Shown: positions 42,433 to 61,943 of the stretch, piece after piece
Layout of the letters: each line of letters starts with the position of its first letter
Numbering within the stretch: position 1 is the first letter of the stretch
Assembly: GCA_029261535.1 (NCBI GenBank)
Contig: JAJDBF010000031.1
Coordinates: 1 to 64,000, forward strand
DNA length: 64,000 nucleotides
From: Nitrospinaceae bacterium
GTDB lineage: Bacteria; Nitrospinota; Nitrospinia; Nitrospinales; Nitrospinaceae
Direction: 5' to 3'
Notes under the pieces: generated by a model
The model's database searches: none
What the model was told of the DNA's origin: nothing
The model's input: only the letters and a program-made list of their open reading frames with translations
Made by a program: the position numbers and the translations under genes

Positions 42433-42764
42433 AAACTTTTTACGCTCCTTGCGGAGGGCTAACGGAAAACATTTGAGGGTTGGGCTTGGATATTTCCCCT
42501 TGTATAAGGAGAGTTTTGCATAACTCAAAAATTCGCAAGCAAGTTTCTCCGCGAACTTTGTAGCCAATGAACAAACCGGTTTTTTTATCCCTCCCCTTAA
42601 AAGGGGAGGGTATGGGAGGGGTCATTTATACAACCTCCCCTGTGTCCCCTCCTAGTAAGGAGGGGAGAAAGAATTTCAAGGTTATGCCAAGGCCTCTGCA
42701 TAAGCAAAGCTTTGCAAAACTCAAAAAATGAAAACAAAGGTGAGGTTCTTTACCGGGTTACACG
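42433..42764. other. Repeat-rich intergenic stretch of about 330 bp
   Basis: Includes AAGGAGAGTTTTGCATAAC (about 42506-42524), CCCTCCCCTTAAAAGGGGAG (about 42589-42608), a second C-rich/A-rich pair ending near 42666, and AAGCAAAGCTTTGCAAAAC near 42703. A degenerate motif copy (GGTGAGGTTCTTTACCGGG) ends at the next gene. No gene. Confidence 0.65.
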
Positions 42765-45520: not shown

Positions 45521-47905
45521 ATGAACACCCTGCACCTCGTATTCCCGGTTCTGATCGTCATCGCCGTTTTTGCCATGCGCTGGCCGCACTTGCGGTTTCC
45601 GCTAGACGAAGATATGGCGACCTATACCTACATCGCCAGGTTCCGTAATCGTGGCCTCAAGTGGAAACGCGATGCGTTTCTTTTTCTGTATCCCATCTGG
45701 CGACTGCAGTTGATCGACCGCATTTACGGCAAGCCCGAAGGAGGCCCGGCGCGAGCCCGGCTTTTCATTGCGGGTCACCACGCCATCACGGGCATCGCGA
45801 CCTACGCGCTGGTGTTCACCCTGTCCGGAAATATCTGGTCAGCTTTTGTTGCAGGATTGCTCTCGGCTTTTTTCCTCACCTCTCCATCTCTGGAAGCGGA
45901 ATCTTTCAGCACCGAGCCCTGCTACCTGCCTTTTCTGTTAACCGGATTCTGGCTGGCGTTACTCGGACCGGCTTACGCTGTGTTTGCCGGTCTTGCCTGG
46001 GGATTGATGATCATCGGTAAACTCACTACTGCGGTTTATGTTCCGGCCTTCCTTATTTTGATGTGGGTGGAGCAAGGAGCGGAGGCGACCTTCAGTGCCT
46101 TCGTTGCCGCAGGTTTGATCGTGTCTGCCTCGACTGCTTTCGATGCGGCTCGGGGTTTTCTCGATGCCGAATCCCTGACGCAAATAAAGGCACGCATGAT
46201 CGCGACCCTGCGCACCGCGCAACGCGACCCATTACTCCCGCGAATGGTCGGTGACCTGAAACTGATTGGCAAAGAAACTCTGCCGCTGTGGCTGTTGGGA
46301 CTTCCCGCGCTTGCCGGTGCCCTGATCGGACCCAAAGGCGACTGGCTGATCGTCCTCATCGGAATCACACTGTTTATCCTTTTGGCACAGCGGGCCTTCA
46401 CGCGTTATCACTACACGCCGTTCATCGCCATCCTGACCATCACCACTGGTCTTGGGCTGGCGCAATTGAGTGCGCTTGGTGGCTGGCTTGGACCGACCAT
46501 CATTTGCGCATGGTTCGCTACACTCGTGCTCACCATCAAGCTACAACTGCCGTTTTACCTGAGACCAACGGACAAAGAAACTCTGGCGCGCTACGGCAAA
46601 TTTGAACAACTGATCTACCTGCCCTATCTCGGCAAACTATTAAAACGGCTACTGCGGCTTCGTGGCAAAGACGAAGGCCGACTGTACGTCTGGGGCAACT
46701 TCACCCAACTCTACCATTACACCGATTGCCCGGCGGCCGACACCTATGTCTATTATGCAATGGGGCCGTGGTTGAACCCGGGACTGGAACCGATCTTCGA
46801 TACCATCATCGGCGGCCTGATGCGACACCAGCCAGCTTATCTTGTGCAAGCTTACCCGGATTTTGACCCCACTCTGCTCAAAGAAATCACCGGCCTCGAA
46901 TACGCCCTGGTCAAAACCGTGCTGGCCCGTTATCCGGTTTACCGCCTGAACCAGGCCACCACGCCAGCGCAGGATCCACTCAAACTGACCTGGATGGAAA
47001 AATGTGGATTGATGGAGCGCCTGACCAAGGGCCGCCATATGCCTGGCATCTCCGATACCGACCTTTTGCGCGGACGCGAGTTGAAAGCCTTGTCCGAGTG
47101 CAGAAAACTGGTCAACCGTAATCCGTCGGACCGGGACGGACGTATTTTTCTCGGGGAGCTGTGCAGTCGTTTCGGCCTGCAACGTCAGTCGGCGGACATG
47201 TTCGAGTGGGTGGTGGCGCACCACCCTCAATTACCGCAAGTGCGTCTCCTGTTGGCAGGACAAAAAATCATTCTCGGAGATAATGACGAAGCGCGGTTCC
47301 TCATCAAAGATGAAATCCGCCTGTTCGGACAATCAACTGAAACGGTACAGATTCTGGGACGGCTCGAAAAAGCTGAAGGTGAATTTCGCAAAGCCATCGA
47401 CCATTTCCAGAATGCCATCGTCGATGCACCGGAACGCTGGGACCTCAGGCTGGAACAGGCCGACTGTTATGAACGCCTGATGGAACCCGCCTCGGCGCGC
47501 AAACGATTCCTGCAAGTATGGGAAGGCGCGACAGAAAAAAGTGAAGACGGATTCCGCGCTCAATCAGCGGTGGGCCTCGCCCGTATCGGTGCCATTGTCA
47601 ATCCGGAATCGGCCAGCCTCGGCGACTTCTGCCACAAGGCACCGGACAACACCGCCCTCGCCTACGCCCATGCCTCGGCTTTGGAACGCGAGGGTCATAA
47701 CGATCAAGCGCGCGACCTGTTTGAATTGCTGACAAACCGGATGCAAACCGACATCTTGCAAGCGAGCGCCTGGTTTCGCCTGGCACGACTCTCTGAAGGA
47801 GAAAAGCGCGAGCGTTGCCTTACGGAATGTATAAGGCGCAACCCCTATCACTACGCCGCGCAGGAAATGAAATCAGTGTGGGAGGAAAGCAATGTCCCGG
47901 CCTAA
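45521..47905 (+). CDS. GT-C-like membrane glycosyltransferase with TPR tail
   Basis: About 794 residues from the ATG at 45521. The N-terminal half (to about 350) has 10 to 12 membrane segments; its first loop has LRFPLDEDMATYTYIARF, an acidic motif like those of GT39/GT83 enzymes. A middle region (about 350-500) has the Trp- and Tyr-rich segments VWGNFTQLYHYTDCPAA and ALVKTVLARYPVYRL. The C-terminal 270 residues are TPR-like repeats (ECRKLVNRNPSDRDGRIFLG; FQNAIVDAPERWDLRLEQ), ending ECIRRNPYHYAAQEM. It overlaps the next gene by 14 bp. It should glycosylate on the periplasmic side, with the TPR tail in the same or the cytoplasmic compartment. Confidence 0.85.
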   Translation: MNTLHLVFPVLIVIAVFAMRWPHLRFPLDEDMATYTYIARFRNRGLKWKRDAFLFLYPIWRLQLIDRIYGKPEGGPARARLFIAGHHAITGIATYALVFTLSGNIWSAFVAGLLSAFFLTSPSLEAESFSTEPCYLPFLLTGFWLALLGPAYAVFAGLAWGLMIIGKLTTAVYVPAFLILMWVEQGAEATFSAFVAAGLIVSASTAFDAARGFLDAESLTQIKARMIATLRTAQRDPLLPRMVGDLKLIGKETLPLWLLGLPALAGALIGPKGDWLIVLIGITLFILLAQRAFTRYHYTPFIAILTITTGLGLAQLSALGGWLGPTIICAWFATLVLTIKLQLPFYLRPTDKETLARYGKFEQLIYLPYLGKLLKRLLRLRGKDEGRLYVWGNFTQLYHYTDCPAADTYVYYAMGPWLNPGLEPIFDTIIGGLMRHQPAYLVQAYPDFDPTLLKEITGLEYALVKTVLARYPVYRLNQATTPAQDPLKLTWMEKCGLMERLTKGRHMPGISDTDLLRGRELKALSECRKLVNRNPSDRDGRIFLGELCSRFGLQRQSADMFEWVVAHHPQLPQVRLLLAGQKIILGDNDEARFLIKDEIRLFGQSTETVQILGRLEKAEGEFRKAIDHFQNAIVDAPERWDLRLEQADCYERLMEPASARKRFLQVWEGATEKSEDGFRAQSAVGLARIGAIVNPESASLGDFCHKAPDNTALAYAHASALEREGHNDQARDLFELLTNRMQTDILQASAWFRLARLSEGEKRERCLTECIRRNPYHYAAQEMKSVWEESNVPA

Positions 47906-50288
47906 AAAATGCGTGGCCGTTTTCGCCACCGAACCTGTCACCGGGAAAATTGGCGGGCTTGGGGTGCGTCAACTGGAAGTGGCACGCGAGTTGTCGCGTC
48001 ATTTTGAGGTGCGCCTGCTCACTCCGTTCAAGGTCACCGCGAACGACGAACCGTTTCCGATCAAACAAATTATTTACGAACAACCCGCTACCCTGACACC
48101 GCATGTGAAATGGGCGGATTCCATTTACGCTATCGCCCTGTCCGTATTGCCGATTGCCCGGCGACATAATAAACCAGTGGCAGCAGACCTGCTGGTGCCT
48201 GAATATTTTGAAAACCTGGAAGGCATGCCGCTCGATATTTTTCACGCTCAGGAAAAATGCGACCGCTTCGGGCACACCATTTCGCGCACCGCAAAATTAC
48301 TGAACTCGGCGGATTTCTTTCTCGCACCGACCGAACGTGGCCGGGATTACTATCTCGGTCAACTGACTTTGCTGGGTCGCCTGCACCCGGACGACTACAA
48401 GCACGATCCGCAATTCCGCTCGCTGATCGATGTCGCGCCTTTTGGCATCCCAGACCGTGAACCGCGCAAAGGCCAACCGCTGTTTCGTGGTCAATTGCCC
48501 AACGTCGGTGCGGATGATTTTATCCTGCTGTGGGGCGGGTCGCTCGCCAACTGGTTTGATGCCATGACCCCACTCAAAGCTGTTGCCCGACTCAGAAAAA
48601 AATACCCGAAGCTCAAATTGATCTTCACCGGAAGCAAACACCCGGTCTGGGGCAAACTTCCTTCTGCCTACGAGGAAGTGGTTAAGTTTTCCAAACAGAA
48701 AAAGATGTTTGAGGAAAATATTTTTATTTTTTCGGACTGGGTGCCTTATGAAGAACACGACCGTTATTTAACGGAATCCTCTGCCGGGGTCTCTACGTTT
48801 TACGATCACATTGAAAATCATTTTTCCTTTCGCATTCGAGTGCTCGACTATCTCTGGGGCAACCTGCCGGTTCTGACCAACCCCGGCAACACGCAAAGCG
48901 AATTCATCGAGCGGCAGAATCTGGGATGCGTTGTTCCGTTTGAAAACGAAAAAGCCCTTGCAGATTCCATCGAATGGATGATGTGCAACCCGGATGAGAT
49001 GCAATTGCTCAGGAACAATATTCAGCAAGTGAAAAAAAGTTTTCACTGGTCAAAGGTGCTGGCACCGCTGGTCCGGTTTTGTCACGAACCGAGGCGCACT
49101 GTCTCGTTGTTCGACGATCAGGGTATTCCCGATGATCGTAAGCAGATGTCGGCAACCTTTGTCTTCGACCCGAACCAGTTCGCGGATACCGTGCCGAATC
49201 ATCCGGCCTTTCAGCTCACCCTGGCAAGCACTGCGCACAAGGCGGGGGACACCGCGTCCGCAGCCTCGCACCTTCTGCAATACCTCGACCTGTACGGCAC
49301 CGGTCTTGAGTCTTCGCTGTTCAAAAATCCTCTATTTGAGTTGACCACGGATTTTCCATTTGCCTTGTTAAAGGAACTGATGCCAGATCATCCGCACGCT
49401 CTTTTGCTTGATGCCAAACTGGCGCTGGAGTCCAACGATCCTGATCGGGCGCAGTCGCTGGTGGAAGAGGAAGTCTCGCTGTTTGGCGAGTGTCCGGAAG
49501 CTGTGTTTCTTGAAGGTCTCATCTATCAACAGCGGGGAATGCACGCCGAGGCGGTGACACCGTTTCAGCAGGTCGTCGACAGTTTGCCCGGTCACCTGCC
49601 GTTTCTTTTGCCACTGGCGGACTCTCTGGTCGCCTCTGGAAATTCCGGCAAGGCGCGCCGGTTATACACCCGCATCTGGCGCGAATCACTCACCGGTCCG
49701 CACTCTGGCGAAGAATGGTTGCGCACCCGCGTTGCCCTGGCCATCTCAAAAATGGACAGAGGCCTCCGACCGGAGCTTGACACCCTCAATAAATATTTCA
49801 GTCGCGATCGCACCAACGAAACCCTGGCGCACCTTGTCGCCGCGCAACTGGAGCTGGAAGGTAAACGGCTGGAAAAAAACGGTGATGGCGCAACCGCCAA
49901 ATCGTTCTACCAGACCGCCTGGAAGCAAAATGGAAAAACGTCTGGCGAAGGCTGGATCCGGGTGGTCGCCGCGCTCAACTTGGCAAAGCTTGAAAGAGAC
50001 AGTAAACCGGAAATCGAAACACTCAATCATTGTCTGAGCTGTGACCCGGAAAACGAGCGGCTTGCCTATGCGGTCGCTTCCACCCTGGAGCGGCAGGGCC
50101 AGAAACTCGAAGCACGTAATATGTTTAAAAGATTCACCACCTCGTTCAAAGATCGCTCCATTCTTGGTAGTGTGTGGTACCGACTCGCGCTCCTGTCACC
50201 AAAAAGCAAGCAAAAACAAATGGTTAGGAAGTGCCTGGCGTTTCACCCCAACCACCGGGCGGCACGCGACCTCCTGCGCTCCCTGTAA
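47892..50288 (+). CDS. GT4-type glycosyltransferase with TPR tail
   Basis: A 798-residue soluble protein. The N-terminal half (about 1-400) has a GT-B-like fold: IGGLGVRQLEVARELSRHFE, DDFILLWGGSLANWFDAMTP, LKLIFTGSK and RIRVLDYLWGNLPVLTNPGN. The C-terminal 380 residues carry TPR-like repeats (HAEAVTPFQQVVDSLPGHLP; ETLNHCLSCDPENERLAYAV) and end KCLAFHPNHRAARDLLRSL, like the ending of the previous protein. The start overlaps that gene. It may act at the cytoplasmic face in the same glycan pathway. Confidence 0.85.
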   Translation: MSRPKKCVAVFATEPVTGKIGGLGVRQLEVARELSRHFEVRLLTPFKVTANDEPFPIKQIIYEQPATLTPHVKWADSIYAIALSVLPIARRHNKPVAADLLVPEYFENLEGMPLDIFHAQEKCDRFGHTISRTAKLLNSADFFLAPTERGRDYYLGQLTLLGRLHPDDYKHDPQFRSLIDVAPFGIPDREPRKGQPLFRGQLPNVGADDFILLWGGSLANWFDAMTPLKAVARLRKKYPKLKLIFTGSKHPVWGKLPSAYEEVVKFSKQKKMFEENIFIFSDWVPYEEHDRYLTESSAGVSTFYDHIENHFSFRIRVLDYLWGNLPVLTNPGNTQSEFIERQNLGCVVPFENEKALADSIEWMMCNPDEMQLLRNNIQQVKKSFHWSKVLAPLVRFCHEPRRTVSLFDDQGIPDDRKQMSATFVFDPNQFADTVPNHPAFQLTLASTAHKAGDTASAASHLLQYLDLYGTGLESSLFKNPLFELTTDFPFALLKELMPDHPHALLLDAKLALESNDPDRAQSLVEEEVSLFGECPEAVFLEGLIYQQRGMHAEAVTPFQQVVDSLPGHLPFLLPLADSLVASGNSGKARRLYTRIWRESLTGPHSGEEWLRTRVALAISKMDRGLRPELDTLNKYFSRDRTNETLAHLVAAQLELEGKRLEKNGDGATAKSFYQTAWKQNGKTSGEGWIRVVAALNLAKLERDSKPEIETLNHCLSCDPENERLAYAVASTLERQGQKLEARNMFKRFTTSFKDRSILGSVWYRLALLSPKSKQKQMVRKCLAFHPNHRAARDLLRSL

Positions 50289-50467
50289 ATCAACGCCTCT
50301 GGCTTTTGCTCAAGATTTTCTTGTAGAAACCCGAAAAGATATTGATACCCCTTTAGGGTAAACTCTTTTGTTCATAATCCTTTTTCAAGGGACTTTGTGG
50401 TCGGCAGACCTCGCGGTCAGCAGATTTTGCTGTCAATCTTGTCTGCCACCTATAGTCAGGACACGAT
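50289..50467. other. Short intergenic segment with hairpin and repeat piece
   Basis: TACCCCTTTAGGGTA (about 50346-50360) forms a small hairpin followed by a few T, a weak terminator candidate. GTCGGCAGACCTCGCGGTCA (about 50401-50420) belongs to the dispersed GACCGCAAGGTC-type family. Confidence 0.45.
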
Positions 50468-52279
50468 ATGAAAATCCTCGTTTGCCAACCTCCGGGGCGG
50501 TTCCCCGGAGATCGTTACGTTTGCCCGTTTCCCAGCAGATGGACCAGCATGTTCCAGAGCTATCCGGTTTTCATCTACTACCCTTACCAGTTGGCGTACC
50601 TGAGCACATTGCTCAAGCGGGAATTCCCGAACGATTACGTCAAACTGATTGACGGCACCTATCTGCGCTTCACGGCGGAGGATTACATTCAGTACATGGA
50701 ACTGGAAAAGCCGGACTGGCTGATTTTTGAAGTCGACACGGTGACCTATAACGAAAGTCTGCGCGTCGCCAAAGCCCTGAAGGCCAAGTACGGAACGCGG
50801 GTCATCATCACCGGGCAATACCCGACGGCGTTTCCGGAAAAAGTGATTGCGGACGGCATGGATTACGCCTGCATCGGCGAATTCGAATATGCGGTGGTCG
50901 ACATCCTGAACGGGCTCGATCCGAAAACCATTTCCGGTGTCTACCCGAACAGCTACCGCAAGGTGTTGGATATCGATTCCCTGCCCGACCCGGAAGACGA
51001 GGATATCCGGCGCATCGATTACAGTTATTGCGGCGGACACCGCTGGACCAAATTCCGCGAGATCGAAGTCCACGCTTCACGCGGTTGCCCCTACACCTGC
51101 GACTTCTGCGTGGCGGGCACGGTCTACTATGAAAAAGAAAACTGGCGCTTCCGCAGTCCGCATCGCATCGTTGCCGAGATAGAAAACCTCAGGCGCAAGT
51201 ATCCGGAGATGGAAGGTTGCTGGTTCAACGAAGAGACCCACATCATCCGCAAAAAAGACATCATGTCGTTTTGCCAGGCATTGATCGACTCCGGCAACAA
51301 TGACCTGCGCTATGAGGCGATGGCCAACCATCAGCGCATTGATGAAGAAATTCTGGAGATGATCAAAAAAGCCGGCTACTACAAACTGCGGCTTGGCATC
51401 GAAACCATCGATGAAGCCACCGGGCAGAGCATCGGTCGAAAAACCAAAGCTGATCGCCTGCACAGCCTGCTTCGCTCCGCCAAAAAACTGGGTATCGAAA
51501 TCTACGGCACGTTCATGATCGGTGCTTCCGGATCGACGCCGCAAGGGGATTTGAAGACTATCGAATATGGCAAGAAACTGATCTCGGAAGACCTCATTTC
51601 CAGCTGGCAATGTTCGATCTCGGTGCCGCATCCGGGCACCACCTTTCATAAAAAAGCAATGGAACATGGATGGCTGGCCACCAATGATCTCGAATCCTTC
51701 AACGGCTCCAGCGGAACCGTTGTCAGTTATCCCAACTACTCCAGCGAACAGATCATGGAGTCGGTGCAACTGATGAGCCGCGAATTCCGCGATGCCCGCA
51801 CGCAGGATACGGTCCGACCGAGGCGATCCATCGCAGCAGAAAAAACTGCCATCCTGAAACAAGACAAACCGGAAATCGACAGGCGGGTCAAGGCGATGAA
51901 CGCGCGTTTTGAAACCGACCCGCAAGGGGCGAGCGAGGAAGCTAAAAAGATTCTGGAAGTATTTCCACAGTTGCTCAGTCCGCGTTATGTCATTGGCAAA
52001 GTGGCGGCACAAGAGGGTCAATTGCAGAAGGCTCGCGAGCAGTTTGAATACATTTACAAGACAGCGGTCGACTACGACGATGCGCTGATGTTCGGGGCAG
52101 GTTCGCATTATCGGCTCGGCATGATCTGCATGGAAGAAAACAAACGCGACGAAGCCCTGCAACATTTTAAAATGTGCATGCACCTCAGTCCCGATCACAA
52201 GGAAGCAAGGAAGCAATACTGGCAACTGATTCCGGAAACCGTGCCCGAGGCCGAACCGGCTGAAGCTGTGGTGTCCTGA
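50468..52279 (+). CDS. B12-binding-type radical SAM enzyme with TPR tail
   Basis: A 603-residue cytoplasmic enzyme. The N-terminal 150 residues form the Rossmann-like region of the cobalamin-binding class (GTRVIITGQYPTAFPEKVIA, then CIGEFEYAVVDIL), without a clear DxHxxG motif. The radical SAM cluster is RGCPYTCDFC with Cys207, Cys211 and Cys214 (CX3CX2C). GTFMIGASG fits the later core. A C-terminal TPR-like region (about 470-600) ends HFKMCMHLSPDHKEARKQYW, similar to its neighbours' ends. It could methylate or rearrange a sugar or lipid. It starts the next group of genes after a 179-bp gap. Confidence 0.9.
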   Translation: MKILVCQPPGRFPGDRYVCPFPSRWTSMFQSYPVFIYYPYQLAYLSTLLKREFPNDYVKLIDGTYLRFTAEDYIQYMELEKPDWLIFEVDTVTYNESLRVAKALKAKYGTRVIITGQYPTAFPEKVIADGMDYACIGEFEYAVVDILNGLDPKTISGVYPNSYRKVLDIDSLPDPEDEDIRRIDYSYCGGHRWTKFREIEVHASRGCPYTCDFCVAGTVYYEKENWRFRSPHRIVAEIENLRRKYPEMEGCWFNEETHIIRKKDIMSFCQALIDSGNNDLRYEAMANHQRIDEEILEMIKKAGYYKLRLGIETIDEATGQSIGRKTKADRLHSLLRSAKKLGIEIYGTFMIGASGSTPQGDLKTIEYGKKLISEDLISSWQCSISVPHPGTTFHKKAMEHGWLATNDLESFNGSSGTVVSYPNYSSEQIMESVQLMSREFRDARTQDTVRPRRSIAAEKTAILKQDKPEIDRRVKAMNARFETDPQGASEEAKKILEVFPQLLSPRYVIGKVAAQEGQLQKAREQFEYIYKTAVDYDDALMFGAGSHYRLGMICMEENKRDEALQHFKMCMHLSPDHKEARKQYWQLIPETVPEAEPAEAVVS

Positions 52280-52302
52280 GCCTTTCACGCGAGCCCGTTA
52301 TT

Positions 52303-53742
52303 ATGTCCGGAACCTGCATCGTATTTTGCACCGCAAGGCCAGCCGATGTAAACCGTGCGTCTGAATTCACAAATTTTTCCGAAGACTACGTTCGCTATTT
52401 CGGGCCAGACTCCTCGCCCCTCAAAGATTCCAAAAATTTTAACTTCATCGACTGGGGTGACGGGCCTTTTACGTTTACAAAAGCGGTCTGCCATTTCGCC
52501 CGATTAAAATCCCTGGCACCGACGCGGGTGGTCCTGCCGCTCAACAACGAAAATGGCGATGGCTATACCTTACTTCGCCTGTTTGCTCTCGGGCTTTCAC
52601 GACACGCGGTGGAAGTGCCTCCGGGTGGCAAACCAAAAAATATTTCGACCAGCCAGATAATATCGCAAAAAGAAATCATCTGGCACACCGCGTTGATCTG
52701 GTTTTTCGATTGTATCGCTCCGATTCTCAGGCTCTGGTTGAGCACGCAAGCCCCGCCCGTTAGAGGCCACGCCCGGTCGCCGATCAAGCCCGAGACGGTC
52801 CAGGATTTTTACAACGAAGAGTCGCCCACCGTTTCCATCATTATCCGGACATTCAATGAAGCGCGCACTCTCGGTCAGACGCTTTCAGCCATCGCCGAAC
52901 AAAAGGGACCGACGCGCGAGGTCATTGTGATTGACTCGGGTTCGGAAGATGACACGGTCGCCATCGCCTGTTCGCATTCTCTGCGCGTGTATAAAATTTC
53001 AAAAGAATCGTTTCATTATTCAAGTGCCCTCAATCTGGGAGCGCGACTGGCACGCGGTTCGTATCTTGTCAACATCAGCGCGCATGCGGTACCGCAGTCC
53101 GACAGCTGGCTTGCCAACCTGATCGCGCCCATGCAGGAAGATGAAAAAGTCGCCGGAGTCTGTGGTCGCGAAATTCCGCTCGAAGACTGGGCGAGCCCGT
53201 TCGAGCGCAAATTGTTGCACGACATGTTCCGCCAGAAAAAACGGGTGATGACCGAGTCTTTCTTTTTCTCCAACGCCAATTCGGCGGTGCGGCGTGACCT
53301 GGCACTGGAGGTTCCGTTTGATGAGACCATCGATTGGGGAGAGGATCAGGTCTGGGCGCACGCAGTGCACCAACTTGGATTTAAAACGGTGTACACGCCG
53401 GATAGCCCGGTGGCGCACTCGCACAATCTGTCGATGATCGATTGCTTTGTCCGCACCCTCAAATTTCAGCGGACTCTGTTTCGCCGCATGCATCAGGACC
53501 GCGCCGACATCACCAATACGGAATTTCATTTGCGCTTGCCAGCACGCGCACTTTCGTTGCGTCGGTTCATCGGAGAGCACCGCCTGATGCCGGAGTTGCG
53601 CGCCTTTTTTACTTCCGCCTTTTGTGAGTACCTCAATTTCCTCGGAAGCGATATGGCGCACCGGGAAATTTTTCTTGCCCAACGCAAACCCTCCTGCGGC
53701 GGAAACAGTTGTCAGCCAAAAAAGGAAACGGTTCTGCCATGA
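52303..53742 (+). CDS. Glycosyltransferase family 2 with N-terminal extension
   Basis: A 479-residue protein. The first 165 residues are unlike known GT domains; they include a sequence VVLPLNNENGDGYTLLRLFA. The GT-A domain follows with VSIIIRTFNEARTLGQTLSA, VIDSGSEDDTVAIA and SSALNLGARLARGSYLVNIS. WGEDQVWAHAV is the later acidic motif. The region PVAHSHNLSM is typical of rhamnosyltransferase-like members. Two cysteines near the end (PSCGGNSC) may bind metal or be structural. It lies between two radical SAM genes. Confidence 0.9.
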   Translation: MSGTCIVFCTARPADVNRASEFTNFSEDYVRYFGPDSSPLKDSKNFNFIDWGDGPFTFTKAVCHFARLKSLAPTRVVLPLNNENGDGYTLLRLFALGLSRHAVEVPPGGKPKNISTSQIISQKEIIWHTALIWFFDCIAPILRLWLSTQAPPVRGHARSPIKPETVQDFYNEESPTVSIIIRTFNEARTLGQTLSAIAEQKGPTREVIVIDSGSEDDTVAIACSHSLRVYKISKESFHYSSALNLGARLARGSYLVNISAHAVPQSDSWLANLIAPMQEDEKVAGVCGREIPLEDWASPFERKLLHDMFRQKKRVMTESFFFSNANSAVRRDLALEVPFDETIDWGEDQVWAHAVHQLGFKTVYTPDSPVAHSHNLSMIDCFVRTLKFQRTLFRRMHQDRADITNTEFHLRLPARALSLRRFIGEHRLMPELRAFFTSAFCEYLNFLGSDMAHREIFLAQRKPSCGGNSCQPKKETVLP

Positions 53743-53839
53743 GAGCACCTCTAAAAACCGCGTTTGACCGTAAGTTCCCCTTGGTTTTAAAGGGGGAGCG
53801 AACTACCGGAACAGAAATTTTCAAATCATTAGAGGTCCC
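53743..53839 (+). repeat. Shortened copy of the roughly 120-bp element, next to a start codon
   Basis: GCACCTCTAAAAACC at the left and ATTAGAGGTCCC at the right are inverted ends. GCGAACTACCG and the CCCCTTGGTTTTAAAGG region match 45282-45402, but about 25 bp are missing. The right end supplies the AGAGGT that precedes the ATG at 53840. Confidence 0.65.
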
Positions 53840-54790
53840 ATGAAAGTAACGGTCATCATTCCCAACTGGAACGGCGCACGCCTGCTCGGCATGTGCCTTG
53901 ACTCCTTATTCGAGTCGAGCTTCCGTGATTTTGAAACCATCGTCGTCGACAATGGTTCGGAGGATGCTTCGTGCGCTTTGATTCGTGAGCGTTACCCAAA
54001 GGTCCGCCTGATTCAGCTCGATAAAAATTACGGCTTTGCCCCGGCCTGCAACGAGGGCATCCGCAATTCAGTCGGGGGTTTAATCGTTCTGCTCAATAAC
54101 GACATCGAAGTTGAAACTCACTGGCTGAGCGAGTTGGTCAGCGGTATGGAACGTCATCCCGAATGCCGGTTGGGCGCGTCACGCATGATGTACCGCGATG
54201 ATCGCAATCAGTTTTGCAACACCGGCGACGGATTTTATCCCTGGGGCGCGGGCAAGTCTCGCGGCGAAGGCGAAACTGATTACGGGCAGTATGATTCCGA
54301 GAACGCGATACCGGGCGTGTGCGCCGGCGCAGGCATCTACCGCCGAAGCCTGTTTGATGACGTTGGCTTGTTCGACGAACGGTTTCACTCCCTGGCAGAA
54401 GATGTCGATTTAAATTTCCGTGCGCGCCTGAACGGGGACACGGCATTTTATTTCCCTAAAGCCCGCGTGTTTCATATCGGGTCGGCCACTCTGGGTCGGT
54501 ACAGCGACCGTTACGTATATCAGGCGCATCGCAACGAATGGTTTGTTCTGCTGAAGAATTTACCGATCAAACATTTCATTCGGCACTTGTCGGGGATCCT
54601 CCGTTATCAAATCCGAACAGCCTGTTATTTTTCTTTCCGGGGTCAGGGAGGACTGTTATGGAAAGCCAAACTTGATGCCATCCGGCAATCTCCGGTCATG
54701 CTGAGAAGTCGCCAGCGCATCCAGAGCCAGCGCACGTTGTCCGACTCTGCACTGGAGCGCGTCATGGAAAAAGAAAGCGGTACTGTATGA
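53840..54790 (+). CDS. Glycosyltransferase family 2, rhamnosyltransferase-like
   Basis: A 316-residue GT-A enzyme. VTVIIPNWNGARLLGMCLDS, VVDNGSEDASCALI, YGFAPACNEGIRNSVG and LLNNDIEVETHWLSELV match the WbbL-type family. FDERFHSLAEDVDLNFRARL carries the catalytic acidic motif. It overlaps the next gene by ATGA. The ribosome-binding site lies at the edge of a repeat element. The donor may be dTDP-rhamnose, by family only. Confidence 0.93.
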   Translation: MKVTVIIPNWNGARLLGMCLDSLFESSFRDFETIVVDNGSEDASCALIRERYPKVRLIQLDKNYGFAPACNEGIRNSVGGLIVLLNNDIEVETHWLSELVSGMERHPECRLGASRMMYRDDRNQFCNTGDGFYPWGAGKSRGEGETDYGQYDSENAIPGVCAGAGIYRRSLFDDVGLFDERFHSLAEDVDLNFRARLNGDTAFYFPKARVFHIGSATLGRYSDRYVYQAHRNEWFVLLKNLPIKHFIRHLSGILRYQIRTACYFSFRGQGGLLWKAKLDAIRQSPVMLRSRQRIQSQRTLSDSALERVMEKESGTV

Positions 54791-56922
54791 AGGTGACGCT
54801 CATTTATCCGCCGGATCGCAATTTTCCGGGCAATCCCTACTCCAGTTTGCCGGCATTGTCGTCCTGCCTCAAGCAAGCCGGGCACGAGACGGCTCTGCAC
54901 GATGTCAACCTGGAAGTGTTTCTGGAGTTGATAAACTCAGGCGCGTTGACAAGATTTTTTGACCGGAAAAATGAACGCCTGGAGCTATTGGGAAATCAGT
55001 CTTCTCTCAATGCTCAGGATGCGGAAGAATACCAGACCCTGGTGCAATTGTTATCCGTTCCGCGAGAATGCCTTGCGGACGCACGCCGGGCCATCGACAC
55101 CATGAAAACGGCGGAGTCATTTTACGATCCGGATCAGTTCAACCTGGCCTACGACAACCTCCGGTCAGTCCTTCGATTTTATTTTGGCGAGCATCCGCTG
55201 GACAACGCGGCCAACCCGGATGTCGTCAACCGATTGTTCGAACGATTGCACAAACCCATGAACGACCCGATCACCTCGGCACTCCAAAGCGGAATCGTCG
55301 ACACGATTATCGCGGAACAACCCGGTCTGATCGGCATCAGCATTCCTTTCATGGTGTCTTACTGGGAAGGCCTGCGCCTCGCAAAATTATTAAAGGACAA
55401 AGCACCGCATATTCCAATCATCATCGGCGGCGCGCTCATTGAAAATCATGAATTGATTTTTACCGGCGACCCGCGATTATTCGATCTTTATGATTTCGTC
55501 ATGGCGGGCGATGGTGACCTGGCACTGCCCAAGCTGGCGACGACTTTGGAAAATGATGGTGATCTCGCGCAGGTATCGAATCTTTATTACAAGGATGCGA
55601 GCGGTAACTGGGCGTTCACCACTCAGCAACGCCTCGATGATTTGAGTTCGCTACCAGCACCGGACTTTGCAGGCATGGCACTTTCCGACTACCCGGTGCC
55701 GGAAGTGGGAGCGACGTTCCAGACTTCGCGCGGTTGCTATTACGGTAAATGCACCTTTTGTTCGGAAAGCTTCCGCGAAAATTATCGCTTGCGAAAACCG
55801 GAACGAGTGTTCGACGATATGGAACATATTTACAACAGCACCGGCATCCGCCATTTTTATTTCTGGGATTCGCTGTGCCCACCGAGAACTCTTAAATATG
55901 TGGCCGAACAGGTGAAGGAGCGCAACCTCCCCTTTGTCTGGTTCGCCGAAACCAAAATGGAAAAAGCCTACCTGCCGCCCGCCTTCATGCAGAACCTTGC
56001 CGACGGCGGTTGCCGCTTTTTGCAGTTCGGTTTTGAATCGGCCAGCCAGCGCGTGCTCGACCTCATCGACAAAGACAACGACCTTCAAGAGGTCGATCAG
56101 GTGTTGAGCAACATGGCCAACGCGGGCATCATGGCGTGCATGACCTGGTTCATCGGCTTCCCGACAGAAACCGAGGGCGAGGCGCGACTGACCTTCGATT
56201 ACATTCGCAGTCACGGATCCAACATTGCCCTGTCTGCTTATTGCGGGGTGTATCATTTACTGCCGGACCAGCCGCTGTTTTATCATCAGAAAAAACTCGG
56301 CATTGAGGTTGAGCAAAACGAACACGGCGGCTATGTCTACACCTATCAGGATGGCTCATTGCCCTACGACAAAACTGAATATCATCAAACGTATGAAGCG
56401 CGGTCGGATTCCAAACTGTTGCATCACGGCGGCTACCTGCTCTATGCCGACCACTGCCCGGAAAAACTGGTGGAGTTGACTGGCTCGTACCGTGCCGGAA
56501 CGATCGCGCGCCACATACCGGATTTAAAAAACACAACGGTCGCGTTCAACAACACCGCCGTTCTCAAACATTTCCCGAGAGATGTCGTGAAAGACTTCGC
56601 CCAGCCTTCGCAACCTTTCACGCTGGTGTATCACAAGATGTCCGGCGAAACATTTCGCTTGTGCGGTCTGGAGATCGCGGCTCTTAAAAATTGTGGTGAG
56701 TCCGTGTCGGCGGAACATTTACGGGCATCGCTTGGTGTCGATTGGAGTGAGATGACGGACATCCTGACCAAACTGTCGCACCGGGGGTTGCTACGCTTTG
56801 TCGATCAAGTAGAACAATTTGATATCGAACCCGCCGCCGCTCGCTACGCCGGTTCCGGATACCTGCTGAACACCGATGATGCAATCCCTGCGGGCCCCGA
56901 CCCTGTGAGCACATCCGCATGA
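54787..56922 (+). CDS. B12-binding-type radical SAM enzyme with atypical cysteine spacing
   Basis: A 711-residue protein. The N-terminal part starts like the cobalamin-binding class (VTLIYPPDRNFPGNPYSSLP) and has IPIIIGGALIENHELIF at about 209. The cluster motif is RGCYYGKCTFC: Cys317, Cys322 and Cys325, spacing CX4CX2C instead of CX3CX2C; a similar spacing is known in some other radical SAM lines. GFESASQRVLDLIDKDND and MTWFIGFPTETEGEARLTFD are typical of the group. The C-terminal 200 residues look like a mixed alpha-beta or winged-helix region (TLVYHKMSGETFRLCGLEIA; LRASLGVDWSEMTDILTKLS), not TPR. It overlaps the next gene by ATGA. Confidence 0.88.
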   Translation: MKVTLIYPPDRNFPGNPYSSLPALSSCLKQAGHETALHDVNLEVFLELINSGALTRFFDRKNERLELLGNQSSLNAQDAEEYQTLVQLLSVPRECLADARRAIDTMKTAESFYDPDQFNLAYDNLRSVLRFYFGEHPLDNAANPDVVNRLFERLHKPMNDPITSALQSGIVDTIIAEQPGLIGISIPFMVSYWEGLRLAKLLKDKAPHIPIIIGGALIENHELIFTGDPRLFDLYDFVMAGDGDLALPKLATTLENDGDLAQVSNLYYKDASGNWAFTTQQRLDDLSSLPAPDFAGMALSDYPVPEVGATFQTSRGCYYGKCTFCSESFRENYRLRKPERVFDDMEHIYNSTGIRHFYFWDSLCPPRTLKYVAEQVKERNLPFVWFAETKMEKAYLPPAFMQNLADGGCRFLQFGFESASQRVLDLIDKDNDLQEVDQVLSNMANAGIMACMTWFIGFPTETEGEARLTFDYIRSHGSNIALSAYCGVYHLLPDQPLFYHQKKLGIEVEQNEHGGYVYTYQDGSLPYDKTEYHQTYEARSDSKLLHHGGYLLYADHCPEKLVELTGSYRAGTIARHIPDLKNTTVAFNNTAVLKHFPRDVVKDFAQPSQPFTLVYHKMSGETFRLCGLEIAALKNCGESVSAEHLRASLGVDWSEMTDILTKLSHRGLLRFVDQVEQFDIEPAAARYAGSGYLLNTDDAIPAGPDPVSTSA

Positions 56923-57899
56923 ATCTGCTCCATTTATTTGAAGGCAATACCGAACAATACAAGAAGCCGCTCTATATCTATTCGGCGCACCATTCCAAAA
57001 CCCGGCACTACCTCGATACCGTTTCCCGGATTTACCACAACCAGAAGATCACCGTTTTATTACGGGGAGAAACTTCCTCCTTGCAAGTTCCCGCTAATAT
57101 AGAAGTCAAAACGCTGGACTTAAGCGAAGCTTCGTCAGAAATAACGATCACGGCTTTCAAACAGATCGTGACTTCTGGAAATTTCGACAGCCTACTGATT
57201 CAAAATGATGAATCGGCGGAATCCTATGAAGTGGTCGACCTCATGCCGCTGTTGAGTCTGTTTGGCGACAGTCACAAGATCGCTTTTCTCAATGCCAGTT
57301 TTCAAATCGTCCCGGTCAACGAACTGATCGCGATCTGGAAAAATCCGATTTATTTGCAAGATGCTGAGCTGACGGTCGACTGTCCCGGTTTAATGATCGA
57401 CCGCGAGTTGGCGCATCTGGAGCGACTGGCCCGCACGCGGCCTCCTTCTGACACTGTGATCGAGATCGGCCGGTATTACGGACGTTCCACCATAGCGCTC
57501 GGACAAGGCGTGAAACGAAGTGAACAGGGTAAGGTCGTGAGCATCGATCCATTTTCTGCGCCGGATATTCAAGAGCGCATCACCGCGCATTGCGTTTCGC
57601 GTTTCGTAGAATTATGGGATCAGACCTCACGTTCAGGCTTTGAACGCTGGCAGACAGAGCGCAAGGACCACAGCATTGGATTTGTTTTTATCGACGGTGA
57701 CCACCGATACCCTGCCGTTGTTCAGGATATTGAACGGTGGGGGAGCTTGCTGGTACCGGGCGGCATCATCGCCCTGCACGACTACTACGAAACACAGCCC
57801 GACTGCCTCAAGGCCTTGAACGAGCAGATCATCTGGTCAGGAAAATTTGAAGATATCGAATTGAAAACCAGCCTGCTGATCGCCCGCAAAAAACAATAA
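56919..57899 (+). CDS. SAM-dependent methyltransferase, class I (Methyltransf_24 type)
   Basis: A 326-residue protein. The C-terminal domain (about 155-325) has VIEIGRYYGRSTIALGQGV, VSIDPFSAPDIQ and FVFIDGDHRYPAVVQDIERW, then LVPGGIIALHDYY, which fit O-methyltransferases of the type 24 family acting on sugars. The N-terminal 150 residues are an unknown alpha-beta domain. The gene overlaps the radical SAM gene upstream by ATGA, so both probably modify the same product. It is convergent with the next gene. Confidence 0.88.
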   Translation: MNLLHLFEGNTEQYKKPLYIYSAHHSKTRHYLDTVSRIYHNQKITVLLRGETSSLQVPANIEVKTLDLSEASSEITITAFKQIVTSGNFDSLLIQNDESAESYEVVDLMPLLSLFGDSHKIAFLNASFQIVPVNELIAIWKNPIYLQDAELTVDCPGLMIDRELAHLERLARTRPPSDTVIEIGRYYGRSTIALGQGVKRSEQGKVVSIDPFSAPDIQERITAHCVSRFVELWDQTSRSGFERWQTERKDHSIGFVFIDGDHRYPAVVQDIERWGSLLVPGGIIALHDYYETQPDCLKALNEQIIWSGKFEDIELKTSLLIARKKQ

Positions 57900-57926
57900 T
57901 CCTGCGACCTTCCAGCCAGTAAATTT

Positions 57927-59417
57927 TCAGGAACGAATACGCAGAGGCGTTTTGGGTTGGCGTTCCTGATAGTCGGGTGCTCCCAGAATCCGGTACACAA
58001 GGTAAAGAAAAGCGAACGCTTTTTTATGCGCAAAATTTTCGCGGAGCGCATTTTCAAAGCAATCCCGCGCCGCTTCCATTTCCCCGCGAAGCACATCCAT
58101 TTCTCCAAGGTGGAACCACACTCCACTCCTTAAATTATCTGGCAGGTTGCCATCGAGCAACATCAGGAATTGCAGACGGGCCTCTTCATAGCGCAATTTC
58201 CGTTTGGCTTCTGACGCTTCCCGATACAGATCGTAAATCGTCACTGTATCGAGCGTGTCGGCTGACATTTCTTCGCGCATGGTTTCAAAATATCGGGCCG
58301 GGTGCGTGGCAAGACATTCCTGACAATCTCTCGGCTGTCTCTGTTCTGGCTGACAAAACATCAGATAGCGGAGGTAACGAAAGGGAAAAGAATTCCAGTA
58401 GGCTTTGGCACCCGTCTCCTCCGGCATGTGCGGCATATCCAGACTGCCACAACACACTTTGGGCGGCACATTCAATCCACTGAACAACAGGGTGTTGTCC
58501 ACATAAGAACACGGCGTGGTCGCCTCTTTCAGTTTTTGATATTCATTGAAGGACACGTGCAAACCCTTCGCTCGCCAGCGGTCGGCAATCTCGTTCAGAA
58601 AAGAACGACCGCCTTCATAATTTTCTGCAAATGACTGGCGATAGACTGCCTCGACCAACGCACCCCCTGCCTCTCGGTTGACCGACATCGGGAACAGCAC
58701 GATATGTTCCACACCTCGTAACATGGCTTTTTCAAACAGGGCATTCATCTGGCTCAGGTTTTCGAGGTTCACCGTGATGTGCAGTTCAAGGTGCGGAGTG
58801 GTTGATGCCAGTTCCTGTTTCATTTCCTGCACCAGCTCGATTTTTTCCCAGAGGTTCTGGCTGTATTCCGGGCGGCCACTGCCATGACCCACCACGGTGT
58901 CGCCTTCAAACGAAATCTGTAGACAGTCGAGCTTGCGGTTCATCAACTCGCCAAGACGGCGACGGGTCAAGCCCACTCCGCTGGTCGTCACCAATGTGTA
59001 TTTGTCGATTCCTTTTTCCAGAAACTCATTCAGGTAAGGACTGTCCAGCGTTTCCCCCACACCGACAAAGCACCAGTGGGTGGCATCTTTAATCCAGGGA
59101 AGAATTTCCTCCCACGATTGCGGCGATAAAAAATCGCGCCCGCCATAAGGCTGGGGGTCGATATGAAAACCGGCGTTGCACATTTCGCAGGCGATGTTGC
59201 AGGTATAGGATGGAGAAATCGCAAAATGTGTCGGGTAGGGTGCGGTCAGTTCAGGAAACACATCGGGCCGGTGCGCGGCCTGTTTCAGCAGGGTTCTCAG
59301 CGAGTGTGCGCTTTCTTCAACACCCTCGACCGCACGCAGGGCATCCGCCACCCGGTCATTCAGTATCAGGTTTAATATTTCCTGCTCGGTTATCGCCTGC
59401 GCTGTTATTTGCAACAT
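57927..59417 (-). CDS. SPASM-like radical SAM protein with TPR-like tail, copy 1
   Basis: A 496-residue enzyme from the ATG at 59417. The cluster is YTCNIACEMC with Cys73, Cys77 and Cys80 (CX3CX2C). A SPASM/twitch-like set of cysteines follows: PKVCCGSLDMP and RDCQECLATHP. The C-terminal 110 residues are TPR-like and end HKKAFAFLYLVYRILGAP. The N-terminal 65 residues are helical. It is a paralogue of the 60456-61943 product. The methyltransferase gene lies between the two. It may act on a sugar, lipid or peptide; the SPASM class often modifies peptides, but no precursor gene was found. Confidence 0.9.
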   Translation of the reverse strand: MLQITAQAITEQEILNLILNDRVADALRAVEGVEESAHSLRTLLKQAAHRPDVFPELTAPYPTHFAISPSYTCNIACEMCNAGFHIDPQPYGGRDFLSPQSWEEILPWIKDATHWCFVGVGETLDSPYLNEFLEKGIDKYTLVTTSGVGLTRRRLGELMNRKLDCLQISFEGDTVVGHGSGRPEYSQNLWEKIELVQEMKQELASTTPHLELHITVNLENLSQMNALFEKAMLRGVEHIVLFPMSVNREAGGALVEAVYRQSFAENYEGGRSFLNEIADRWRAKGLHVSFNEYQKLKEATTPCSYVDNTLLFSGLNVPPKVCCGSLDMPHMPEETGAKAYWNSFPFRYLRYLMFCQPEQRQPRDCQECLATHPARYFETMREEMSADTLDTVTIYDLYREASEAKRKLRYEEARLQFLMLLDGNLPDNLRSGVWFHLGEMDVLRGEMEAARDCFENALRENFAHKKAFAFLYLVYRILGAPDYQERQPKTPLRIRS

Positions 59418-59442
59418 AAGTGGTTGAGTGTCCGGTCCGGCG

Positions 59443-60459
59443 TTATTGTTTGACCACGAAAGCGGCACCGTCGTAACCCAGTAAGACGGTTTCCGGTTTG
59501 TCTTTAAAGAAATAATCGACGGCGACACGTTCTCCCAGGGTCGCTCCAAAACTGTAGTTCTGAAACATCATGATGCCCCCGGGCACCATGCGCGGGTACA
59601 CCTGCTCACATAAAAATTGCGTGACCGCAAACTGGTCACAGTCAATATGAACCAGTGAGAACGGGCCTTCGCTGGAGGCACGAAAGGTCTGCATCACATC
59701 TCCAGGAACAAATCGAACATTGTCAAAGTCTGACAAAAGACTTTGCACGCGCTCCAGACTGGTGCCGGAAAAATCGTTCACCTCAACCAGATCCAGTGCC
59801 GAACTTTGCGGAATACCCTCGAAGGTGTCGTATAAAAAAAGCAGTTTTTCATCGAAGCCGAGCTTCTGCATAGTCAGCGCGAAAAAACAGGCACTGCCTC
59901 CCTGGAACACGCCAAATTCTGCGACATCGCCATCCAGTTCCATCGTCTGCTTGAGATACTGATAACAGCAGTACCAGTTTTTTTCGTCGGTGTACCAGAC
60001 AGCGCCGTGCCGGGCCAACGCCTCGGTCGATTGTTCCACAAGCGTTGCGAATTCCTTTTCCGCCAGCGGCTGGGCAAACCGATGGACAAATAATATTTCT
60101 TTGTCCTGTAACGGCGAGAAGGCAACCTGACTCAACACTTCGGTTAAAGAGGGGCTGTCGATCATCACGGCGACCAGGTCAATATTGGGCACCAGATGCA
60201 AGGCTTCTTCAAAAGACATTACCGGGCAGGACTTGATCGGTCCCGACTCACCCGCTCGTTTGTTGTCGATGATGCAGACTGGGACGAAGCGATCACCAAG
60301 CACAGAAAAAAATTCGTTGACGAGAGATGCCGTCTGGTAGGTGTAGCCATACAGAGCCACCCGCGTTCCGGGGCGTTCACGGATGCGGTCAAACAAACAT
60401 TGCTTCAGTTGATCCAGATTGCGGATCGCCTTTTGCTCTATACGCTGGCCTTCGTTCAT
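59443..60459 (-). CDS. TylF-type methyltransferase with N-terminal Rossmann-like domain
   Basis: About 338 residues from the ATG at 60459, which overlaps the stop of the upstream gene by ATGA; the longer frame is not needed. The N-terminal part (ALYGYTYQTASLVNEFF; VPVCIIDNKRAGESGPIKS) looks like a nucleotide- or sugar-binding Rossmann domain. The C-terminal part has the TylF/macrocin O-methyltransferase signature: VAEFGVFQGGSACFFALTM, LFLYDTFEGIPQSSAL and SLVHIDCDQFAVTQFL, then MVPGGIMMFQNY. It methylates a sugar hydroxyl in known cases. It is encoded between two paralogous radical SAM genes. Confidence 0.88.
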   Translation of the reverse strand: MNEGQRIEQKAIRNLDQLKQCLFDRIRERPGTRVALYGYTYQTASLVNEFFSVLGDRFVPVCIIDNKRAGESGPIKSCPVMSFEEALHLVPNIDLVAVMIDSPSLTEVLSQVAFSPLQDKEILFVHRFAQPLAEKEFATLVEQSTEALARHGAVWYTDEKNWYCCYQYLKQTMELDGDVAEFGVFQGGSACFFALTMQKLGFDEKLLFLYDTFEGIPQSSALDLVEVNDFSGTSLERVQSLLSDFDNVRFVPGDVMQTFRASSEGPFSLVHIDCDQFAVTQFLCEQVYPRMVPGGIMMFQNYSFGATLGERVAVDYFFKDKPETVLLGYDGAAFVVKQ

Positions 60460-61943
60460 ACCAGCAATCCTCCCGGCTTGATCTCCGGATGGTAGGTCAA
60501 AGGAAACTTGTCTTGTCGCCGATCTACTTTGGGAAGGCCGGTGATGCGCATCAGCAGGGACAGATAAGCCCATCCCCGTTTGTGATCGAAGTTATGCTGG
60601 ATACATTTTTGAATGCAGTCCAGTGCCTCTTCATCATTGCCCCGGCCCAGCTCAATTTCCGTCAGATGAAAATAGACACCGCCTTTCAAGGCATCGTCTT
60701 CGGTAAGCGTCAACACTTCTTTAAATCGCGCCTCGGCCTGATTCCACAATCCTTCCAGCTTCAACCGCGAGGCCTCCTGATAAACAGGAATGGGATCTAC
60801 TTTAAGAGGAGCTGTATGGAGTGCTTCACCGCAGGTTTTGTAATAACGACGAGTCTCGAGAATCCAGCAGTCCTGACATTCGCGCGGCAAACCTTTTCGT
60901 TCGCCGACAAAATGCAGATAACGGAAATAGCGAAAGGGTAGCGAGTTCCAGTATTCTTCGGGCGGCGTGTCCCAAAACGTCAGCGGCATTTCGATCTTGC
61001 CGCAACAGATATTGGGTCCGCTGGACAAGCCGTGTATCTGAATGGTGTTGTCGACATAACTGCAGACCTCTGCACGCTCGTGGTATTCAGAATAAGCGTT
61101 GACCTGCAAACGCAGTCCGTTCCGGTTCCAGCGGTCAACAATGTTTTTGAACTCTGCCGAGCAACGATCAAAATCCGGCCCGAATGATTTTTCATAAAGC
61201 ATGGGGCTGATGCGCCCACTGTCTTCCACCACCGACATGGGAAGCAGGAGGATGTCGCGGATATCGCGCTCCCTTGCCTGGGTGAACAGGTTATCGAGGT
61301 CACTCAGGTTTTCCCGGTTGACGGTGACGTTGAGACCCATCACCGGAGTTTCACTGCTCAATTCTTCTTTCACCTTTCGGACCAGATCGATCTTGTTCCA
61401 GATATTTTTGATGTAGGTGTCTTTGCCATCACCATGGCCCACAGACGTTTTTCCATCGAAAGAAAAATTCAGTATCTGCACCCCGGTCTCGATCATCATC
61501 CGTATTTTTTCGCGGGTCAATGGAACGCCGCTGGTGGTCACCACTTTCACGGGACCGTCCACGTCTTCCAGAAAATCGAAGAGGTGAGGCGAATCCAGAG
61601 TCTCGCCAATGCCGACAAAAAACACATGGGTGCCGGTACGTATCCAGGGTTTGGCTTTTTCAAACTGCTCTGGCGAAAGATATTTGTAGTTGGGGTCGAT
61701 CTCGGTCTTGTTGTGGAACCCGGTGATGCACATCTTGCAACCAATGTTGCAGGTGTACGAGGGGTTGACCACGACGTATTCAGGCAAGTCCGCCGTCAGT
61801 GAAGCCAGCGGTTTATCACGCCCTCTGGCCCGCGCGATGAGATTTTTCAGGACAGGATCGGGCTCGCTCTCCCTGGCCAGCGCGCACGCCGCGTCTTCCA
61901 AACGGTCGGTCATGAGCAGGTCAAGCACTTCTGGCAAGGGCAT
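60456..61943 (-). CDS. SPASM-like radical SAM protein with TPR-like tail, copy 2
   Basis: A 495-residue paralogue of the 57927-59417 protein. The cluster is YTCNIGCKMC with Cys65, Cys69 and Cys72. SPASM-like cysteines are PNICCGKIEMP and RECQDCWILE. The TPR-like tail contains NDEEALDCIQKCIQHNFDHK, then RGWAYLSLLMRITGLP. The fixed order radical SAM, TylF methyltransferase, radical SAM with close spacing points to one transcript. Which step each copy does is unknown. Confidence 0.9.
   Translation of the reverse strand: MPLPEVLDLLMTDRLEDAACALARESEPDPVLKNLIARARGRDKPLASLTADLPEYVVVNPSYTCNIGCKMCITGFHNKTEIDPNYKYLSPEQFEKAKPWIRTGTHVFFVGIGETLDSPHLFDFLEDVDGPVKVVTTSGVPLTREKIRMMIETGVQILNFSFDGKTSVGHGDGKDTYIKNIWNKIDLVRKVKEELSSETPVMGLNVTVNRENLSDLDNLFTQARERDIRDILLLPMSVVEDSGRISPMLYEKSFGPDFDRCSAEFKNIVDRWNRNGLRLQVNAYSEYHERAEVCSYVDNTIQIHGLSSGPNICCGKIEMPLTFWDTPPEEYWNSLPFRYFRYLHFVGERKGLPRECQDCWILETRRYYKTCGEALHTAPLKVDPIPVYQEASRLKLEGLWNQAEARFKEVLTLTEDDALKGGVYFHLTEIELGRGNDEEALDCIQKCIQHNFDHKRGWAYLSLLMRITGLPKVDRRQDKFPLTYHPEIKPGGLLV

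Follow-up and report, generated by a model that had tools for sequence, protein, structure and literature searches.

The window analysed here (bases 1-64000 of the 99,576-base contig C31, from a 3.45 Mb Nitrospinaceae genome in 84 contigs) contains a gene cluster that we consider, with reasonable confidence, to be a locus by which the Nitrospinota modify the flagellar filament with a flagellin glycan, in which enzymes sharing a C-terminal tetratricopeptide repeat (TPR) tail would be docked at one place and a membrane glycosyltransferase would turn its catalytic face towards the cytoplasm. The predicted core consists of (i) a membrane enzyme of the GT-C fold with a cytoplasmic TPR array (GTC), (ii) a GT2 glycosyltransferase, and (iii) a large NHL-propeller protein (NHL). 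It would be accompanied by cytosolic modifiers that vary between genomes: GT4-type enzymes (GT4), radical SAM enzymes (in the window SP1 and SP2), B12-binding radical SAM enzymes (B12), sugar O-methyltransferases and further GT2 enzymes. We computed a kinship of the tails, a conserved locus, gene fusions, co-occurrence of GTC and NHL, the GT-C fold, and a flagellar gene context in three deep-branching genomes. Phylum-wide searches covered 77 Nitrospinota genomes, of which 31 (completeness ≥90%, contamination ≤5%) are referred to below as good genomes; co-occurrence counts and Fisher values ignore phylogeny.

An earlier note on this DNA had described a common TPR-like tail on five enzymes of different chemistry. 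All five proteins, with the end motifs quoted for them, occur in the open reading frame list at the positions and strands given, and one related tail is carried by different catalytic domains. However, SP1 and SP2 are paralogues (40% identity over 480 residues), so their common tail needs no separate explanation and the chemistries number four; relatives contribute a fifth tailed class, a GT2 enzyme with tail (GT2x). The closing motif proves nothing when taken alone, N-P-x-H-x-x-A being ordinary for TPRs. Pfam detected TPRs in the GTC, GT4 and B12 enzymes, and the helical array of GTC is also present in its AlphaFold2 model (helices 520-790), where it matched TPR structures; SP1 and SP2 gave no Pfam TPR match, and their TPR-type tail was recognised by profile comparison only. 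A profile built from the five window tails (A1) was used to find tailed loci across the phylum, and the loci so collected formed the tail sets for profile tests, excluding L061_4 and L038_4 (<30 bits) and duplicate loci (in the profile-profile comparison, the B12 set also excluded L080_1).

Pairwise tail alignments exceeded shuffles with z values of 25 (GTC-GT4), 38 (SP1-SP2) and 2-12 (the other eight pairs), the weakest pair, B12-SP1, being matched or exceeded by 11 of 300 shuffles. The GTC and GT4 tails (33% identity in the A1 alignment) are clearly homologous, and the link of the B12 tail to the SP and GTC/GT4 groups is weaker in this comparison. When the SP2 tail was searched against the whole own genome, which holds 115 TPR_16 matches, it retrieved itself and the SP1, GTC and GT4 tails only (threshold E ≤ 1). 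A profile made from the GTC tails of 33 relatives, with the window sequences left out, ranked the window tails 1-5 (108, 90.5, 40.9, 31.2 and 22.0 bits), with the last, SP1, barely above the best fetched background TPR locus of the genome (21.7 bits). In profile-profile comparison, with the remaining part of the same TPR array as internal control, the SP tails aligned best to GTC columns 255-342 (score 84.5; next best place 54.2), and the B12, GT2x and GT4 tails to the C-terminal tail region of GTC (91.6, 107.0 and 176.3; next best places 64.4, 68.2 and 30.2, respectively). Against the GT4 array, the best place was likewise the C-terminal end for SP (50.5; next 17.2) and B12 (39.3; next 24.0) tails. 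Each class fits the last ~100 columns of the GTC repeat array better than its other repeats. On the strength of the SP2-tail search, the GTC-tail ranking and the profile-profile comparison, the tails, judged by sequence, constitute one module whose kinship goes beyond generic TPR likeness. It is unlikely that they are ordinary TPR ends gained independently, with no shared docking partner. Conserved tail columns do resemble TPR structural positions, and the SP, B12 and GT2x profiles place some background TPRs over other tails, a lack of full separation that counts against a single module; yet these same tails score 27-39 units higher against the tail region of GTC than against the other TPRs of that protein, and a genome search with just the SP2 tail retrieves no tails but those of the locus.

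Further proteins with this tail, which the earlier note had suggested looking for, were found with A1 (E 1e-13) in 41 of the 77 genomes, often grouped on one contig; the tailed classes in the loci read were GTC (34), SP (17), B12 (5), GT2 (5), GT4 (4) and other (1). A single scan of genome contigs with two short SP patterns gave six loci, 6/6 in Nitrospinota, which leaves room for occurrence in other phyla. The typical gene order is prfB and the metallo-beta-lactamase protein gene, the cassette, then NHL, a spermidine-synthase-like gene, PEPCK, pdxA and ksgA. Within it, GTC, a GT2b homologue and NHL recur, and the remaining enzymes differ between genomes. A GT2 enzyme is fused behind the GTC tail in 12 of 32 aligned GTC members, and in one genome (G013) the GT2a homologue is fused behind a B12-tail protein. 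Conserved synteny and natural fusions support one locus and one assembly, and the glycosyltransferases and sugar-type O-methyltransferases support a glycan as the product, both as had been proposed. The cassette is missing in three flagellated genomes of a sister genus (G005, G006 and G007), where prfB and the lactamase gene come immediately after the spermidine-synthase-like gene (gene calling in G006 missed the frame at the position of prfB and gave a spurious antisense one). A natural partial deletion is seen in G025, which has a 182-residue NHL remnant at the cassette site (L143:7223-7771) and has kept the flagellin-linked sugar genes.

The protein starting at 62176 had been suggested as a scaffold for the tailed enzymes, and its role as a companion is supported by its distribution. 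GTC was found in 42 and NHL in 46 of the 77 genomes (both in 41, GTC only in 1, NHL only in 5); among the good genomes, 19 have both, 12 neither, and none has one without the other. The pairing extends to genomes in which GTC and NHL do not adjoin on one contig: in the 41 genomes with both, the spacing is <20 kb in 25, 54 kb on the same contig in G013, and the genes lie on different contigs in 15, mostly fragmented assemblies. It weakens the count that GTC and NHL are usually neighbours in genomes of shared ancestry, so that one deletion could remove both, with G025 as a case. A predicted model of an NHL relative (1165 amino acids; predicted local distance difference test, pLDDT, 84.6) has two propeller-like ends around a long helical core. 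Its N-terminal propeller matches TRIM-type NHL domains (Z up to 39.5, ~30% identity); the structure-search matches for the NHL protein come from this propeller, which fills the match list.

The presence of a flagellum alone was rejected as a correlate of the system, as flagellin occurs in 27 of the 31 good genomes and fails to split positives from negatives. Flagellin number and linked sugar genes do separate them. Flagellin_N matches number 6-9 in 18 of the 19 system-positive good genomes and 3 in the other (G062), and 0-4 in all 12 negatives. The flagellin loci of positives carry genes for a cytidylyltransferase, whose family is present in 19/19 positives and 3/12 negatives, and for a Gfo/Idh oxidoreductase (18/19 and 1/12, respectively). 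The single Gfo/Idh miss among positives is the own genome, in which contig C23 ends just past the flagellins. One of the three cytidylyltransferase-bearing negatives, G019, has two stop codons in the gene (C33:9546-9851) and is without flagellin, GTC and NHL; there the pathway seems decayed as a whole. In genus g2 of the own family, flagellated genomes have neither the system nor the sugar genes linked to flagellin.

In all three genomes of family f9 that have GTC (the deep-branching G071, G072 and G076), the gene directly upstream of it is of the PF01973 type, which we take to be the Maf family. The domain was detected in two of these neighbours (4.6e-42 and 7.4e-39), and the third was recognised by its likeness to the first (2.1e-229); the nearest NCBIfam model is the flagellin modification protein PseD, at 62 bits against a cut-off of 670, and the gene is not called PseD here. 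In G072, one strand carries flgA, flgN, flgK, flgL (a flagellin-fold protein so read), fliW, a frame recognised by eye as csrA-like, another of 205 residues, and finally the PF01973 gene followed by GTC. Another contig of G076 carries fliS, fliD, a short frame in the usual place of flaG, flagellin, the cytidylyltransferase, Gfo/Idh, an SpsG-like gene (named by eye) and NeuB. This f9 gene order supports the flagellar link independently of the co-occurrence counts. Maf proteins are reported to transfer nonulosonic acids to flagellin (PMC11339370).

Because the system goes together with the number of flagellins and with the sugar-activation genes linked to them, and because the PF01973 gene adjoins GTC in f9, the product of the locus is probably a flagellin glycan. 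Several points tell against this. In the window's own lineage the genomic link to flagellar genes is by co-occurrence only, and no flagellar genes stand beside the cassette, its borders being prfB and, beyond NHL, the spermidine-synthase-like gene and PEPCK. G016 (86% complete) has six flagellin matches and both sugar genes with no GTC or NHL, G025 has sugar genes without the system, and the flagellin and sugar-gene counts and their Fisher values are uncorrected for phylogeny. The last point and the Nitrospinales locus without a flagellar gene would also suit a surface polysaccharide or lipid-linked glycan apart from flagellin, the correlation then reflecting lifestyle and shared losses, and envelope glycan loci commonly contain glycosyltransferases, O-methyltransferases and radical SAM enzymes. 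We regard such a product as improbable in view of the PF01973/GTC adjacency in 3/3 f9 genomes with GTC, the flagellar gene run of G072, and the flagellated g2 genomes that have neither the system nor the sugar genes. A separate stretch of the own genome (C33; L121:189-7000) encodes a 1125-amino-acid GT4-like/methyltransferase/TPR protein, then a protein weakly similar to that of the PF01973 gene (1.1e-11) and a GT9-like protein (all named by eye); G076 has a comparable start next to fliS (L148:1-2289), and this is possibly a second flagellin-modification locus.

The AlphaFold2 model of GTC (pLDDT 91.7) matches, along residues 1-480, STT3, PglB, AglB, ArnT and ALG12 (VIA Z 20-23.5, with about 400-420 residues aligned), and Foldseek placed yeast oligosaccharyltransferase chains at ranks 9 and 16. 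Residues D29 and D31 of the first long loop are invariant in 32 sequences and are presumably catalytic, as in GT-C enzymes. Pfam PMT_2 was matched at E 0.001 by only 4 of the 32 aligned members, and a PDB sequence search with GTC gave TPR and other helical-repeat proteins, with none via the membrane part among the matches listed. GT-C enzymes of the STT3/PglB/ArnT/ALG12 type have their N-terminus and short loops in the cytoplasm and their catalytic face outside. In the GTC of the window, the short-loop (non-active) side, N-terminus included, has a single lysine or arginine, which is also the median for the 32 members, compared with 16 in the matching loops of Escherichia coli ArnT and 15 and 11 in two Nitrospinota relatives (borders of control loops and transmembrane segments set by eye from hydropathy); the catalytic side of GTC has 24-36. 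The two relatives, L135 and L139, were taken from five of the genus, L138, L140 and L141 being dropped for having no readable frame. In the three GTC-GT2 fusion proteins inspected, the tail runs into the GT2 part without an intervening hydrophobic segment, and enzymes of the GT4 and radical SAM kinds are cytosolic.

This charge pattern, the GT2 fusions without a membrane segment and the tail common to cytosolic enzymes together suggest that the tail and the catalytic face of GTC are probably cytoplasmic, the reverse of the textbook GT-C arrangement. Three of the 32 members depart from the pattern, with 11, 17 and 25 basic residues on the non-active side (the one with 17, L043, has a longer N-terminus and probably too early a start). 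All solved GT-C_A relatives found (STT3, PglB, ArnT and ALG12) have the textbook orientation, which would put the catalytic face and the TPR array of GTC in the periplasm, and basic residues on the active side can serve phosphate binding; that orientation is nevertheless unlikely here, given about one basic residue where the controls have 11-16, the fusion of 12 of the 32 members to GT2, and the presence of the same tail on cytosolic enzymes.

We infer the docking, substrate and chemistry of the system, like the GTC topology, from these data. In a model that we hold tentatively, an inverted GTC anchors a multi-enzyme station, where tail-docked glycosyltransferases and radical SAM enzymes, with NHL as organiser, would build and edit a flagellin glycan before export. 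GT2b and the other glycosyltransferases would build the glycan at the inner face of the membrane, radical SAM enzymes and O-methyltransferases would edit it, and the TPR module would hold the tailed enzymes at one station, either on NHL or directly on flagellin. GTC would then transfer or extend the glycan at the membrane, with flagellin as the likely end acceptor, and building and modification would take place on the inner side before flagellin leaves the cell. Three tandem 195-amino-acid paralogues with a hydrophobic N-terminal segment, found in the cassette of G052 (L058:10672-12643; one was scanned and has no Pfam family), were also considered as acceptor; they were seen in this one genome only. 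As to the docking partner, flagellin appears at least as likely as NHL, because FlmG of Caulobacter has a TPR domain that is reported to be both required and sufficient for the binding of several flagellins (PMC7591256). Direct FlmG-like docking on flagellin, with NHL as chaperone, sensor or glycan-binding factor, is a real possibility, somewhat short of an even chance, and the tracking of the system by flagellin number agrees with it; the inseparability of GTC and NHL in the good genomes, and the 54 kb between them in G013, fit a direct partnership of these two instead.

The genes of the locus and its left border are listed in Table 1. Pfam Radical_SAM matched SP2 above the cut-off (2.3e-9) and SP1 just under it (2.6e-6). 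No Pfam match to the SPASM domain (PF13186) was obtained in SP1 or SP2 at E 0.01, and their likeness to PqqE and W_rSAM_matur lies under the cut-offs.

Table 1. Genes of the tail-enzyme locus and its left border (window coordinates unless stated otherwise).
Feature	Position	Strand	Remarks
Metallo-beta-lactamase-fold protein	42765..43802	-	conserved left border of locus
prfB	43815..44936	-	conserved left border of locus
GTC	45521..47905	+	polytopic GT-C-fold domain, residues 1-480; TPR array 509-794; tail 47585-47902
GT4-type glycosyltransferase with TPR array	47892..50288	+	tail 49989-50285; Pfam Glyco_trans_1_4 3.9e-7, TPR_19 7.6e-13
B12-binding radical SAM enzyme with TPR tail	50468..52279	+	tail 51908-52237; nearest NCBIfam HpnJ, under cut-off
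GT2a glycosyltransferase, without tail	52303..53742	+	homologue fused behind B12-tail protein in G013 (L046:7842-10709)
GT2b glycosyltransferase, without tail	53840..54790	+	homologue fused behind GTC-TPR-tail in 12/32 aligned relatives
B12-binding radical SAM protein, without tail	54787..56922	+	from family searches
Methyltransf_24 family methyltransferase (RMNT_CmcI-like)	56919..57899	+	from Pfam
SP1 radical SAM enzyme with tail	57927..59549	-	tail 57969-58262; likely start 59414 from alignment with SP2
TylF-type sugar O-methyltransferase	59443..60573	-	from Pfam
SP2 radical SAM enzyme, SP1 paralogue	60456..61943	-	tail 60525-60836
NHL protein, 5' part	62176..64000	+	runs on to C31:65910; full length 1244 amino acids

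Beyond the left border, a polytopic 549-amino-acid protein and a small membrane-type neighbour (window 40458-42567, minus strand) have no Pfam match; pairs of similar size adjoin the lactamase gene in several relatives, and this may represent a further membrane glycosyltransferase. An AAA ATPase gene (C31:66019-67956; L001:6019-7956) with a Toprim-like end and matches of the PtuA and RT-Toprim types separates NHL from the spermidine-synthase-like gene in the own genome and is not there in the relatives read. Anti-phage defence was rejected as a function of the locus: PADLOC gave nothing for GTC, GT4, B12 and NHL at E 1e-5, and for SP2 a weak viperin-like radical SAM match only. In G021, two genes of the sulfatase family and one of the phosphodiesterase family (L062:4736-8837) stand directly before a tailed radical SAM gene; folds of these types can also be transferases decorating glycans.

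The related tail, the single locus or assembly, the NHL companion and the glycan of the earlier note thus stand, and its five unrelated enzymes do not, two being paralogues; it did not foresee the flagellin link, the GT2 fusions or the reversed membrane topology. In the open-licence PubMed Central literature searched, we found nothing on (i) a GT-C enzyme with inverted topology or on the cytosolic side, (ii) flagellar glycosylation in Nitrospinota, (iii) a set of NHL, TPR, glycosyltransferase and radical SAM proteins, or (iv) flagellin glycosylation with radical SAM and TPR proteins; for glycosyltransferases and TPRs in Nitrospina, one irrelevant paper came up. The parts are of known kinds, but in that literature we found no description of their combination, of the shared tail or of the apparent inversion. 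If the proposed topology is true, GTC would be an exception to the rule placing GT-C activity on the far membrane side, and an oligosaccharyltransferase-like fold would be at work on a protein exported by the flagellar route. Through the shared tail, the recruitment of enzymes to a modification pathway becomes open to direct testing, and a radical-SAM-edited glycan is predicted for the flagella of the Nitrospinota, a phylum that includes marine nitrite-oxidising bacteria.

Among known systems, the flagellin islands with nonulosonate genes and Maf/PseD of Campylobacter, Aeromonas and Clostridium share with the deep-branching members a PF01973 gene, NeuB, a cytidylyltransferase and Gfo/Idh beside flagellar genes; the GT-C and NHL core, the shared TPR tail and the radical SAM enzymes were not found there in the searches made. 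Aeromonas islands also contain methyltransferase and Gfo/Idh genes (PMC7874193). Caulobacter FlmG is, like GTC, a glycosyltransferase with a TPR domain in a multi-flagellin bacterium, but its TPR is N-terminal on a single soluble GT-B enzyme, and the excerpt of the report mentions no GT-C, NHL or radical SAM partner (PMC7591256). The N-terminal NHL propeller is shared with animal TRIM-NHL proteins and Brat and with bacterial PknD (Z up to 39.5), whereas the protein described here has two propellers and a helical core, with no RING or kinase match in Pfam. Finally, GTC has the membrane fold of the GT-C_A enzymes STT3, PglB, AglB and ArnT and the invariant acidic residues of their first long loop, and differs from them in its reversed charge pattern, its cytoplasmic-type TPR array and its fusions to GT2.

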